Source of the DNA: Candidatus Pacearchaeota archaeon
GTDB lineage: Archaea > Nanobdellota > Nanobdellia > Pacearchaeales > GW2011-AR1
Assembly: GCA_018304145.1 (NCBI GenBank)
Contig: JAGVWU010000002.1
Coordinates: 1-47,408 of the forward strand
Length of the DNA: 47,408 nucleotides
Direction: 5' to 3'
The translations under genes were made by a program, and so were the position numbers. Below are positions 1,861 to 7,501 of the stretch, in pieces. Under the pieces are notes generated by a model, which was given only the letters and a program-made list of their open reading frames with translations, searched no databases and had not been told where the DNA came from. Numbering within the stretch: the first letter of the stretch is position 1; every line of letters begins with the position of its first letter.

Positions 1861-2538
1861 ATGTTAGAAAATATTTTAGGTATGTTCAATAGCTTAGCAA
1901 ATTATATATCAAATACTTTGAATCAGTCGAGTTTGTTAATAGGAATCATTGTCTATGCTGCATTTATTTTAATATATTCTGGATTTTTTTGGAATTTTAA
2001 TAAGATTGTTTCAAAAAAGGATTTTTATGCAAGCTTTATTCAGAATTATTTTGATGAGAAAAATGAAGGTTTTAAAAAATTAATAGGGGGAATTTTAAAA
2101 CTTATAAAATATATAATAGTATTTCCCGCAGTAATATTGTTCTGGTTTTTGGTATTTGCATTATTTCTTTTGTTTCTTTCAAAAAACAATGAAATTTCAA
2201 AGGTTCTTTTGATAAGTGCTTCGATGATTATTGCAATAAGAATTTTGGCATTTTCAGAAGAAAATTTGTCTAGAAATGTTGCAAAGATAATACCTCTTAC
2301 ACTTTTAGCAATTTTTATAATTAACCCCAGTTTTTCAGACTTAGCTGGTTTTTTGGATAAACTGTCTTTAGTAAAAGATTTGATTAATAGTTCTTTGAAC
2401 CTGATGATTTTTATTTTTATAACTGAAGTGGTTTTAAGAATACTGAATCAAACTTCAAAAACCTTAAGAAATTTTAGTGAAAAAAGAAGTGAAAAGATTT
2501 TGATAAAGAGACCTGTCAAGAAGATTAAGAGAAATTAA
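1861..2538 (+). CDS. hypothetical multi-pass membrane protein
   Basis: Several hydrophobic segments; basic C-terminus. Confidence 0.75.
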   Translation: MLENILGMFNSLANYISNTLNQSSLLIGIIVYAAFILIYSGFFWNFNKIVSKKDFYASFIQNYFDEKNEGFKKLIGGILKLIKYIIVFPAVILFWFLVFALFLLFLSKNNEISKVLLISASMIIAIRILAFSEENLSRNVAKIIPLTLLAIFIINPSFSDLAGFLDKLSLVKDLINSSLNLMIFIFITEVVLRILNQTSKTLRNFSEKRSEKILIKRPVKKIKRN

Positions 2539-4454
2539 AACTTAAAATTATGCACCCTTATATCTGGAGACAACAGATAAACCCTGTCTGTTTTGCCCCT
2601 CAATCCCCTATAAACTCTTTGCAATAATTCTCTTTTTGCCTTATCCATATAAAAGCTCATAAAATAAGAGGGCTTATTTTTTTTAAATATCTTCCAAAAA
2701 ATTTCAGATATGTTGGGGTAAGGAAATCTTGTTATAACAATGCTATTGCACAGGTCTCCTGGAAAATCTATCCCCCTGTTGCATTTTGTTGTGAATAAAA
2801 CATTTATTTTTTTATCTTTAAAATCTTTTATTCTTTTTCCAAATGGATCATTGGTTTGTTCGTTGATAAGCTGTTCTTGTGTTGGAAGATTTTCTAAATT
2901 CAAACTTATTTTTTCACTTTCATTGGGCAAATCTGAAAAACTATTTACATGAACCAAAACCGGTTTCTTTGCACAGGATAAACATTTTGAAAGTGAGTTA
3001 AGATACTGCTCTCTGGTTGTCAAGCCTTTTTTAAAACTTTCATAACTGCAATCAAGCTCATATCCATACCTGCAATTTATTAACTCTCCCTGATGGCTTG
3101 TCTCTGCTTCAATTATTTTAAATTTTTCCAAGCCAAAAATATTTTTTAAAACATTTTCAGAATGAATTGTTCCGGACATTAAAATAAAAACTTTATTTTT
3201 TTCAACTAACTCCTTGAATCTTTTTTCAAGATTAGTGGTTACAAGATTTATTATTAAATCATTTTCTTTTTTACTCATTGAAAAAAATGTTTCGTCAATA
3301 AAATCTTCAAATATTTTGGCAACTTTGTAAAGATGATTGATGTAATTTAATTCTTCATCTAATTCATCTACAATTTCTGGATTATTTAGCATTATCTGCA
3401 ATAATTCTTCAATTAAAGTATTTTTAAGTTCAAATATTTCATTTGAATCTTTTAATTTATTTGAAACCTTAATCGCATTGACTGTGTCTGTTAATTCTTG
3501 AACTGAATTGATAACCTGGGGGTTTTTTGAGTAGATATTATTCAATGAAAACAGCAGTCTGTTAAGATTTATCTGCTCTTCATTTGAAAAATTGTCTAAA
3601 AAATCATCACATTCATCAATTATTTCTAGTTCAGTGCTGGGCTTTCTGTTTAAAATAGATTCAACAATATATTTTGCGCTGTTGAATATTATTACATCTG
3701 CATCTGCATAAGACTCATATTGTTCATAATAAGGGCAGCCTTTTGTTCTTAGATATAAGGAAAATCTCCTGTTATTTAGTCCGGAATAATTTATTTTTTT
3801 AGAGTCTTTAAATTTTCTAAGCTCTATTTCTTCGGGAAATAAAGGAGACCAATATGGGCAGACCGGAGCTATCGTCATTCTTTTTATGTCGGTTATAGAA
3901 TCAAAATCCCTAAAATCTACTGAAGGATTCTGCCTAATATAATCTTTTAGTATATTAATATTTTTTTCCTTAATCTCTATTTTGCATGGAATAAAATGGT
4001 TATCGCAGGAAATTTCATTTTTTGCTGCAAAATTTTTTCTATGAACCTGATTCGGTTCAAAAATCTCGGTCAATATTGCATTGGTTTCTTTTATTTTTGG
4101 TTCTAGAATTTTGGAATTTTCCTCTAAAAATTTGCATTTAAAATTTTTTCTTCCAACTATTGAAGAAATTTTAAGTTTTTTTCCATTATGAAGGATATAT
4201 TTTTTGCTTGTATAATCGTTTTTATACTGCTCCTGAAGATTTTTTATTGGAACAACTATAGAAGTTTTTCCAAGATGCCTTGCGAGATTCAGTGCAATGG
4301 CACTTTTGCCTGTTCCACACTGCCCTTTAATAAAAATTATCTTATATCCTTCTTTTATAGAATCTAAAACCTCTTTAACAACATCTGCCTGAGTTTTTCC
4401 ATTTGAAAAAACCAAAGGTTTAAGCTCTTTTTCATCTTCAAATAATGACCACAT
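2535..4454 (-). CDS. XPD/DinG-like superfamily 2 helicase
   Basis: Walker A GQCGTGKSA, DECD box (IIDECDDFLD), C-terminal TTKCNRGIDFPG and RVYRGLRG motifs. Confidence 0.8.
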   Translation of the reverse strand: MWSLFEDEKELKPLVFSNGKTQADVVKEVLDSIKEGYKIIFIKGQCGTGKSAIALNLARHLGKTSIVVPIKNLQEQYKNDYTSKKYILHNGKKLKISSIVGRKNFKCKFLEENSKILEPKIKETNAILTEIFEPNQVHRKNFAAKNEISCDNHFIPCKIEIKEKNINILKDYIRQNPSVDFRDFDSITDIKRMTIAPVCPYWSPLFPEEIELRKFKDSKKINYSGLNNRRFSLYLRTKGCPYYEQYESYADADVIIFNSAKYIVESILNRKPSTELEIIDECDDFLDNFSNEEQINLNRLLFSLNNIYSKNPQVINSVQELTDTVNAIKVSNKLKDSNEIFELKNTLIEELLQIMLNNPEIVDELDEELNYINHLYKVAKIFEDFIDETFFSMSKKENDLIINLVTTNLEKRFKELVEKNKVFILMSGTIHSENVLKNIFGLEKFKIIEAETSHQGELINCRYGYELDCSYESFKKGLTTREQYLNSLSKCLSCAKKPVLVHVNSFSDLPNESEKISLNLENLPTQEQLINEQTNDPFGKRIKDFKDKKINVLFTTKCNRGIDFPGDLCNSIVITRFPYPNISEIFWKIFKKNKPSYFMSFYMDKAKRELLQRVYRGLRGKTDRVYLLSPDIRVHNFKF

Positions 4455-4467
4455 TTTAAAATAGAGG

Positions 4468-5472
4468 TTAAAGAGAGTTTATAACAATTCTTGTTGTTAA
4501 TTTATAGGTATCTGCCCATTTTGCGTAGGCATTCCAGCCATTAAAACTTTTGATAAATTTTTCATAAGAAATTTTTTTATTTTTAAACAAATCAATTTTT
4601 TTCCTAATTTTTTTAATATTTCTTTTTCTTAATAAACTAAAATAATAAAAATTCCTAAAACCTACAAAATCTATGCCTTTTGATAATAAAATAATTTTAG
4701 ATTTGTCTGGATGTAGTTCGAGTTTTAGCTTTTCTTTTAAAAATTCATTAATTTGCTGCTTCCAAATTTCTAGTTGTAATTTTGATTTATGCAAAATTAC
4801 AAAATCATCTACATACCTTATATAATATTTTGCTTTTAATTTATACTTAACAAAATAATCCAGTTCATTTAAATAAACATTAGCAAAAAATTGAGATGTT
4901 AAATTTCCAAGAGGCATGCCTTTTCCATTAATTTTAGAATCAAAGTTATTTAATATTTTCTCAATAAGCCAAATTACTTTTTCATCTTGAATTTTTCTTT
5001 TTAGAAGATTAACTAAAATCTCCTGACTGACTTCATCAAAATAATGTTTAATATCTGCTTTTAGACAATAAGCATTTTTACTATGATTCTTAGTAACTTT
5101 TCTTAAAAAATAATAAAATCGTTTAATAGCAAATAAATTTCCCTTGCCTTTTCTATTTGCACAAGAATCGTAAATAAACAATCTTTCAAAAACAGGTTCA
5201 ATTATATTAATAATTGCATGATGCACTATTCTGTCTCTAAATGCAGATTTAGAAATTTTTCTTGTCTTTGGATCTCTTAAAATAAAGGTTACAAGAGGTT
5301 TTGGTTGATAAGTCTCAGTTATTAATTCCTTTTGCAATTGAAATAAATTTCCAATAACGTCCTTTTCAAATTCAATTACATATGACATTTTTGTTTTCCC
5401 TTTTCTTGCTTTACGCCAGGCAAGAAGAAGGTTGCTCATATTGTAAATCTCCGAATATAAGTTCTCTTTCAT
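4468..5472 (-). CDS. DGR-type reverse transcriptase
   Basis: RT motifs including YVDD (IRYVDDFVIL) and GMPLGNLTSQFFANVYLNELD, the DGR-associated GNxxSQ motif; TR lies directly upstream. Confidence 0.96.
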   Translation of the reverse strand: MKENLYSEIYNMSNLLLAWRKARKGKTKMSYVIEFEKDVIGNLFQLQKELITETYQPKPLVTFILRDPKTRKISKSAFRDRIVHHAIINIIEPVFERLFIYDSCANRKGKGNLFAIKRFYYFLRKVTKNHSKNAYCLKADIKHYFDEVSQEILVNLLKRKIQDEKVIWLIEKILNNFDSKINGKGMPLGNLTSQFFANVYLNELDYFVKYKLKAKYYIRYVDDFVILHKSKLQLEIWKQQINEFLKEKLKLELHPDKSKIILLSKGIDFVGFRNFYYFSLLRKRNIKKIRKKIDLFKNKKISYEKFIKSFNGWNAYAKWADTYKLTTRIVINSL

Positions 5473-5496
5473 TATTAAAATTCTGGTAGCGAGAAC

Positions 5497-5587
5497 TATT
5501 CTGAAAAGAGAGCCATCATCATTGTTGAGGTTCCTGTTGTTGCAATTGAAGTTGGACCTGTTGCCATGCCCAATGCTATTGAGCCAA
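5497..5587 (-). repeat. DGR template repeat (TR)
   Basis: 91 bp matching 5990-6080 at a constant offset of 493 bp; sense strand is rich in AAY codons (..AACTTCAATTGCAACAACAGGAACCTCAACAAT..). Confidence 0.95.
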
Positions 5588-5690
5588 CATTAGTAGCACT
5601 TTTGCCTTTACATCACTGAAGCTTCTCGCAAGAACCTTCTGTATTTTATAGCTTAAATTCAAGTAAAATATGCGCTGACAAAAGAGCATG

Positions 5691-5714
5691 TAGTTCTGGT
5701 AGCTACCAGAACTA
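5691..5714. repeat. perfect 24-bp palindrome between DGR target gene and TR
   Basis: TAGTTCTGGTAGCTACCAGAACTA. Confidence 0.9.
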
Positions 5715-5737
5715 ATAATTAAAAGAAATGAAGTTTA

Positions 5738-5761
5738 AAAATTCTTGTAAAAGAATTTTTA
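5738..5761. terminator. hairpin downstream of the DGR target gene
   Basis: AAAAATTCTT-GTAA-AAGAATTTTT, followed by TTCAAATT-TTAC-AATTTGAA. Confidence 0.5.
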
Positions 5762-5797
5762 ATCCCATTCAAATTTTACAATTTGAAGTTTTAAAAA

Positions 5798-6634
5798 TTA
5801 TTGTTTTGCAAATTGCATTAATCCTAAGATAAGTTCTTCAAGTTTTCCTGCTTGCAAAGTTCCTAATTTTCCTTCTTTTATTCCTTGGGCAGTTTCTAAA
5901 AAAGAATTTAATTGTTCTTGAGTATAAGGCAAAGCCCGCATTTCTTTTGGAGAAATTTTTTGCGCGCCTTCGGCGCTTTTCTTACCACGTACCCTGAAAA
6001 GAGAGCCAAGATCATAGTAGAGGTCCCAGTAGTCGCAATAGAAGTTGGACCTGCCGCCATGCCCAATGCAATCGAGCCAAAAACTCCTTGCATAATCTTT
6101 TGATTGAATTGGAAGAAGGTAAAAAGTTACTTCCCGAATTCCTGTTTTATTTTTTAAGAACAAACCAGATTCTTTTGCAAGTTTTTTGCTTCTTGCTAAA
6201 AATACTATTCCATTATCATCTGCAAATGAATCTGTTGGAACATTATGTGTTTTGGTTTTTCCTAAATTTATTACTCTTTTTTTATAAGTAGGTCTTGCTG
6301 TATCTTGCTCGGCTATTTCTAAAATCACTTCTGTTGCAGCTCTTCCATTTAAAAGAATATCTGGAGTTAAATAAAATTCTCTATTATTTTTATGAGCATC
6401 AACTGCTGTTTGAGCATAAGGAATCAAAGGATTAAATTCAGCCAAAGCTCCATAAATATTTCCCTGGATGCAACTAAAGCTTTCAGTTGTCCAAGCTCCT
6501 GGATAACAAACATCTGAATCAACTCCTTGCTTAATTCTTTCTTTTAATAAATCTCTTGCTGTTGCAGGTTTTCCTTCTGAACTTGCTTTTTCATAAGCAA
6601 CTGCAAAATTTCCTGTTTGTCGTTCTAGTGCCAT
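5798..6634 (-). CDS. DGR target (variable) protein, C-type-lectin-like variable region
   Basis: Contains the VR in frame: SFWLDCIGHGGRSNFYCDYWDLYYDLGSLFRVRG; same-frame TR reads CWLNSIGHGNRSNFNCNNRNLNNDDGSLFRI. Confidence 0.93.
   Translation of the reverse strand: MALERQTGNFAVAYEKASSEGKPATARDLLKERIKQGVDSDVCYPGAWTTESFSCIQGNIYGALAEFNPLIPYAQTAVDAHKNNREFYLTPDILLNGRAATEVILEIAEQDTARPTYKKRVINLGKTKTHNVPTDSFADDNGIVFLARSKKLAKESGLFLKNKTGIREVTFYLLPIQSKDYARSFWLDCIGHGGRSNFYCDYWDLYYDLGSLFRVRGKKSAEGAQKISPKEMRALPYTQEQLNSFLETAQGIKEGKLGTLQAGKLEELILGLMQFAKQ
5990..6080 (-). repeat. DGR variable repeat (VR) inside the target gene
   Basis: 91 bp aligned without gaps to TR; 15 substitutions, 14 at TR adenines (sense), one G-to-C. 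Confidence 0.95.
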
Positions 6635-6733: not shown

Positions 6734-7501
6734 TTAATTTGTAAATGCTTTTGTTTGCTCGCAGTATTTTCCAAACTCACACCATTTGCATAAAGGGCTT
6801 GGAGAAGCAGGATAAATTGTTGTAGATTCTATTTTATTTATCAGGTTTATAATATCCTGCTTCAGGCTTTCCAGCTGCTCTTCTGTTCTTTTTGAAATCA
6901 TTTTTTGATTAAAATCAAGAAAATGCCAGATTAAATGAACATCTGATGCATTAAATTCTTTTCTTATTCCTATAGAATACAAGGCTAACTGCCGGTCTTT
7001 GTTTAATTCCTCTTGAGTTTTTATTGAACCGGTTTTATAGTCATGAATCTCAAAAATATTAGATTCATTATTATGAACAAGCCTGTCAATATAACCCTGA
7101 AGCATATATTTTCCATCATTATTTAGGTCTATTGTCACCTGATGCTCTATTGCTATTGTATTATCCAAAAAAGGATAATTTTTAATAAAGTAATCTATTA
7201 AAAACTTGATTCCTTTGTCAAAATAATATTCAAAAGTCAGATTAGTGTTGACAATTTTTATTTCTTCTTTAAAATCTCTTTTCCAAGATTTTGCATAGTA
7301 TTCTATTGCATCTTCTAGCTGCAGATTTCGCTTTTCAAGAATTTTTAAATATAACCATTCTAAAGTTTCATGCACTTTTTCTCCCAAATATGCCTCTATT
7401 GTACATTCTATTTCAGGAGTCAATTTATCAATGTATCTGAATTTAAATTTTAATGGGCATTGTTCAAAAGCAGAGATTCTTGAATGTGAATAGATTGTCA
7501 T
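6734..7501 (-). CDS. PD-(D/E)XK nuclease, RecB/Cas4-like family
   Basis: SHSRISAFEQCPLKFKFRY N-terminus, IHDYKTG motif, C-terminal Cys cluster CKWCEFGKYC. Confidence 0.85.
   Translation of the reverse strand: MTIYSHSRISAFEQCPLKFKFRYIDKLTPEIECTIEAYLGEKVHETLEWLYLKILEKRNLQLEDAIEYYAKSWKRDFKEEIKIVNTNLTFEYYFDKGIKFLIDYFIKNYPFLDNTIAIEHQVTIDLNNDGKYMLQGYIDRLVHNNESNIFEIHDYKTGSIKTQEELNKDRQLALYSIGIRKEFNASDVHLIWHFLDFNQKMISKRTEEQLESLKQDIINLINKIESTTIYPASPSPLCKWCEFGKYCEQTKAFTN

Follow-up and report, generated by a model that had tools for sequence, protein, structure and literature searches.

Diversity-generating retroelements (DGRs) of archaea, DPANN archaea among them, have already been published, together with AvpA-like targets and possible remote targets (PMC4372165, PMC5006420, PMC8144416). 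In the crystal structure of the target protein AvpA (PMC5006420), the variable region (VR) is internal and the protein carries a disordered extension, and a hairpin lies within its own coding DNA. The DNA analyzed here, henceforth referred to as the window, is a 47,408-nucleotide stretch from a Candidatus Pacearchaeota archaeon. The initial annotation of the window had described a complete DGR and had remarked that DPANN DGRs were already reported. The latter remark was confirmed by the three papers cited above and, since DPANN DGRs have been published, the window element is of a known kind. The description as a complete DGR was supported by the placement of the reverse transcriptase (RT), by adenine bias and by a second VR derived from the same template repeat (TR). 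It is nearly certain that the window contains a chromosomal DGR from a DPANN archaeon of the Pacearchaeota type, and that the TR of this DGR is copied into the VR of its target and, in trans, into the VR of a paralogue. If confirmed, the clade-level RT switch described below would be new.

Template repeat, variable regions and target proteins

The element is arranged on the minus strand in the order target, TR, RT, and a recheck of the open reading frames (ORFs) and of the repeat showed the coordinates and order given in the initial annotation to be correct. The target gene (5798..6634, minus strand) is an ORF with homologues in eight related genomes and one paralogue within the same genome. 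It encodes 278 aa, with the VR internal and followed by 63 residues. The VR, referred to as VR1 (5990..6080, minus strand; core 5994-6080), encodes target residues 186-215 and was defined by its ungapped alignment to the TR (5497..5587, minus strand; templated core 5501-5587), with which it forms an 87-bp direct repeat. As is typical of a DGR, the VR is located in the C-terminal part of the target ORF and the TR is located near the RT, outside the target.

The TR and VR1 differ at 15 of 91 positions, and 14 of these differences occur at TR adenines. This count had been reported previously and was reproduced; with adenine at 29 of the 91 TR positions, the corresponding hypergeometric p value is 8.9e-8. 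The adenine changes from TR to VR1 consist of seven A>G, seven A>T and no A>C substitutions. Eight of the nine AAY codons are altered, in addition to AGC>TGC and AGG>TGG, exactly as described before. Under adenine mutagenesis, AAY codons cannot turn into stops. The previously proposed 91-bp TR/VR alignment is real and ungapped, but its full length is probably not templated. The final two A>G changes in VR1 (AGA ATA > AGG GTA) are identical in the remote second target and are probably native target sequence; because they are common to both VRs, the templated core was set at 87 bp (5501-5587 and 5994-6080), within which 12 of 13 differences occur at adenines.

A search of the whole genome with the TR returned one further strong match (contig C12, 4173-4259, E = 3e-21). 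The other matches in the genome were weak (E = 0.017 and above, 14-34 bases) and were dismissed as chance. The second VR (VR2) sits in a paralogous target of 237 aa, with 78% identity to the first, on a contig that carries SecY-like and other housekeeping-type genes, named by inspection of their translations. VR2 differs from the TR at 16 positions, 15 of which are adenines (13 of 14 within the core). When VR1 and VR2 were compared with each other, differences were found at 15 of 26 template-adenine sites, 2 of 61 other VR sites and 60 of 554 upstream sites. Relative to the flanks, divergence is higher at the adenine sites (p = 3e-8) and, if anything, lower at the non-adenine sites (p = 0.07), and the low non-adenine divergence is consistent with both regions having been rewritten from one template. 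Furthermore, VR1 and VR2 each depart from the TR at just one non-adenine position while their flanks differ by 11%, which indicates that TR-to-VR transfer took place later than most of the target divergence. With a single template that evidently fed two genes, the window provides a further clean archaeal DGR.

Both VRs (window 5990-6080; L013 4173-4259) contain A>G and A>T substitutions only, with no A>C in 29 adenine changes over 91 bp. Additionally, the C-terminus of the paralogue is replaced after the VR, directly beside an IS200-like transposase gene (PF01797); the transposase gene and the remote target lie at L013 3615-4085 and 4100-4813.

A GC hairpin, GCGCC-GAA-GGCGC, is located just 3' of VR1 in the target coding sequence (5964..5976, minus strand; GCGCCGAAGGCGC) and was included in a family-wide hairpin test. 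Across 69 related DGRs, hairpins 3' of the VRs were far stronger than those in random stretches (p = 3e-23), and the hairpin sequence of the window recurs in L016, L021 and L027. Judged by sequence, an IMH-type VR 3' end with a downstream hairpin is present in the window element.

No family match for the target was found in Pfam, PHROG, NCBIfam or PADLOC, and no solved-structure match was found when PDB sequences were searched with the target, with its profile and with four further targets from archaea. No viral relatives of the target were found, and its single-sequence AlphaFold2 model displayed a pLDDT of 34. Based on the AvpA-like layout, in which the VR is internal and the hairpin lies in coding DNA, the target likely adopts an AvpA-like fold with a C-type-lectin surface.

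In the proposed mechanism, the TR would be transcribed and the resulting RNA copied to cDNA by the RT, with errors at template adenines. The homologous VR of the target (5798-6634) would then be replaced by this cDNA, as would, in trans, that of the paralogous target elsewhere in the genome, with the acceptor site marked by the VR 3' end and the hairpin beyond it. Exposed binding residues, for the most part encoded by AAY codons, would be re-randomised in this manner and the remainder of the target protein would stay constant. We infer these retrohoming steps, as well as present-day activity of the window DGR, from the features described above.

The reverse transcriptase of the window

The RT gene (4468..5472, minus strand) is an intact single frame of 334 aa that matches PF00078 (E = 1.8e-23) and phrog_1423 (E = 1e-117). 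All catalytic motifs are present, including GMPLGNLTSQFFANVYLNELD and YVDD. A profile search of the whole genome identified the window RT as its sole PF00078 (RVT_1) protein. No ORF of at least 50 aa is located between the target and the RT, and no match to bAvd (PF22296) was detected in the genome, which is 86.6% complete. Avd is found with many DGRs and is commonly associated with them, but it is not a defining component. On its two sides (window 2535-4454 and 6734-7501), the DGR is bordered by genes for a DinG/XPD-type helicase and for a PD-(D/E)XK nuclease that weakly matches Cas4.

The failure to find Avd in a genome of this completeness, together with a remote target whose C-terminal end is altered beside an IS200-like transposase gene, would fit a fossil DGR, in which the RT or its RNA is defunct and both VRs are relics of past diversification. 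A fossil is nevertheless improbable, given that the RT is intact with its catalytic motifs in place and that the transfer from TR to VR postdates most of the divergence between the targets, as shown by the single non-adenine mismatch per VR. A DGR with a functional RT is the preferred reading.

The identity of the RT was assessed by sequence, structure and phylogeny. Among PDB sequences, the best match to the window RT was the Bordetella DGR RT 8ub7 (E = 1e-45), compared to 2e-21 for group II intron RTs. An AlphaFold2 model of the window RT, generated with 42 relatives in the alignment, displayed a pLDDT of 93.3, and the structural matches ranked 1-5 were all RTs of DGR RNPs, with TM scores up to 0.87. 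The closest phage or virus RT, at 42% identity, belongs to the archaeal virus ANMV-1 and is annotated as part of a DGR. In a FastTree analysis, the window RT was placed within a 99%-supported DPANN clade among DGR RTs, apart from group II introns, with deep placement approximate due to long branches. Placement of the RT had been set as a test in the initial annotation, and by PDB match, fold and tree the protein falls among DGR RTs; the window RT belongs to the DGR RT clade. The suggestion that it is a group II intron RT or another RT, accompanied by an unrelated duplication, can draw on matches to RVT_1 and to an NCBIfam group II intron model (the latter far under its cut-off) but has virtually no probability against the five top folds and best sequence match, all DGR RTs, the tree placement and the adenine bias seen on two VRs, and a non-DGR identity was refuted on the PDB sequence match, the tree and the structural matches.

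Slippage tracts in the RT genes of relatives

Relatives of the window RT were identified in 67 of 181 genomes of the family. The order target, TR, RT is conserved in these relatives, with the TR lying approximately 30 nt ahead of the RT reading frame and the VR approximately 400 nt before the TR. In one subgroup (L036, L039 and L041) the RT carries a C-terminal extension of approximately 150 aa, which in L039 contains a helix-turn-helix domain (PF14493).

Many of the relatives' RT matches consist of two pieces in different frames, with the break just before motif 4 (GMPLGNLTSQ). The sequence at the break consists of 8-13 consecutive G, of 11 consecutive C, or of a (GA)n tract of 14-26 nt. A set of 97 RT genes was classified; the set is near-complete, in that some loci were chosen for looking split but nearly all RT matches of the family are covered. 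A tract was accompanied by a broken frame in 37 genes and by an intact frame in 14, while genes lacking a tract were in frame in 42 cases and out of frame in 4 (Fisher p = 6e-11). In total, 51 of the 97 genes contain a G-, C- or (GA)n run, which is located in either of two linkers and in most cases immediately ahead of motif 4. The in-frame share of tract-bearing genes (14/51) fits one third (p = 0.46), and is lower when long tracts alone are considered (6/40, p = 0.01).

The two linkers, at about residues 170-190 and about residues 230-242, hold 51 of 56 tracts. In the AlphaFold2 model of the window RT, the first linker is predicted to form the loop between helices 164-175 and 191-211, and the second the start of helix 231-249. 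Tracts at RT residues 174-184 were observed as out-of-frame and in-frame alleles in Pacearchaeota-type loci (L058-L077 and L100-L137). A second tract site is found in L100, L101, L102 and L105, where G10-G12 runs occur at residues 234-237, after YVDD, and the frame is broken. Along the RT tree, tracts were gained or lost 25 times and differed in type 34 times, indicating that they come and go at one site. An initial view that the switch is confined to one family was corrected when tracts of G9-G27 were found at the same position in L261, L262, L263 and L265, four genomes that belong to other orders of the class. A G6 tract with a frame break was also present in L250, from another family of the order. 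The surroundings of the G-run are alike in the distant RT genes L066, L071, L072, L073 and L261, reading G(n)CGAACG, as if from a common seed. No such tract was observed in an 80-locus sample of bacterial RTs that favours intact genes.

The relatives' RT genes display the properties of a slippage phase-variable gene, namely a tract within coding sequence, in-frame and out-of-frame alleles, and a frame that can be restored by a change of tract length. All 33 testable out-of-frame genes would be open as a full-length RT at another tract length, compared to alternative frames that are closed in 29 of 66 cases (p = 8e-7). G-runs, C-runs and (GA)n tracts are suited to slippage switching because they contain no stop codon in any frame. 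It is likely that the DGR RT of these DPANN archaea is phase-variable in the family of the window and, in scattered cases, among other orders of the class. Slippage of a tract in a tolerant loop before motif 4, or at the site after YVDD, would switch the mutator on or off, with hypermutation off in most cells and on stochastically, and the window RT would be a switch-free protein among switch-bearing members.

Homopolymers are error-prone and some contigs end in or beside a tract (L130), so the repeats might instead be assembly or sequencing artefacts, or mark the neutral decay of dying RT genes. This explanation is quite improbable. The (GA)n tracts are nearly as common as the G-runs, and a single RT linker accounts for 10 of the 22 distinct (GA)8 sites of the 181 genomes, as counted from the list of sites (Poisson test, based on an estimated total of 140 Mb). 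Only 4 of the 97 genes have a broken frame but no listed repeat, and the linked TR/VR pairs of out-of-frame loci retain an adenine specificity of 96% (475/495), the same as intact loci.

A slightly lower probability is assigned to a split RT, in which the broken genes encode two polypeptides from two overlapping ORFs. The second ORF could begin at the Met of GMPLGNLTSQ, and both halves of the out-of-frame genes are conserved, with pN/pS values of 0.09-0.33 like those of intact genes (dS near saturation). However, in each of the 33 genes described above, the downstream frame can be followed back across the linker and the repeat without a stop, which counts against a split enzyme since an open linker is unneeded if translation begins at motif 4. 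Moreover, a slippage tract coincides with 34 of 40 frame breaks, frame relations are mixed, and 14 of the 51 genes with a repeat are in frame. The two-chain enzyme was the first reading of the relatives and was dropped in favor of slippage after the tracts were recognized and the open-linker test was performed.

Slippage-driven phase variation is the preferred reading for the relatives. Comparison of RT loci showed that their G-run or (GA)n tract is located where the window RT has the linker between motif 3 and motif 4 (4921..4956, minus strand; residues 173-184). In the window this linker is 36 nt long, in frame and repeat-free. No slippage tract was found in the window RT, and neither G10 nor (GA)8 was found genome-wide. 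Its nearest relatives, L106 (C11), L073 (G11) and L108 (G12), are all out of frame. The window RT is a tract-free, in-frame member nested among tract-bearing RTs.

The relatives suggest that a targeted mutator can come under the control of a stochastic genetic switch, and can do so repeatedly, through repeats of different types in one and the same codon region. If true, this would tie two diversity mechanisms together, hint at a way in which cells keep down the cost of a standing mutator, and account for the many archaeal DGR RTs that would be annotated as broken or missed. Separately, (GA)n or G-run tracts were observed near the starts of long ORFs resembling exported or membrane proteins in L144, L145, L149 and L150, which suggests wider use of slippage switching in these archaea.

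Comparison with known systems

The window element resembles the Nanoarchaeota (DUSEL4) DGRs with AvpA (PMC4372165, PMC5006420) in its DPANN host and in a short VR that lies close to the C-terminus without reaching it. The hairpin in the target coding sequence is a further similarity, and VR-bearing targets distant from the RT were reported there too. The window differs in that no solved structure could be matched to its target by sequence and in that a second target, on a different contig, demonstrably matches its TR. An RT slippage tract was not found in the two Nanoarchaeota DGR papers (PMC4372165, PMC5006420), and no earlier report of a switched DGR RT was found in the literature on DGR phase variation, split RTs and slippage, which was covered in part.

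The DGR of Bordetella phage BPP-1 (8UB7) shares with the window the RT fold (TM 0.87, 31% identity), adenine-specific transfer from TR to VR and a hairpin after the VR. Unlike the BPP-1 DGR, the window element is chromosomal, has no detected Avd, contains a TR of 91 rather than 134 bp and is paired with a different target. The DGR of the archaeal virus ANMV-1 (KP703175) provides the nearest RT in the virus collection, as noted above; its target, AdtA, is viral, whereas the window copy is chromosomal and lies next to ribosomal-protein-like genes.

The closest parallel to the RT genes of the relatives, and of the relatives only, is with bacterial phase-variable (contingency) genes that contain simple sequence repeats. 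In both, G-run or dinucleotide tracts are located within coding sequence, the in-frame share is near one third and a change in length alone restores the frame. The systems differ in that the tract is absent from the window copy and in that the putatively switched gene of the relatives is itself a mutator, a DGR RT, in archaea.
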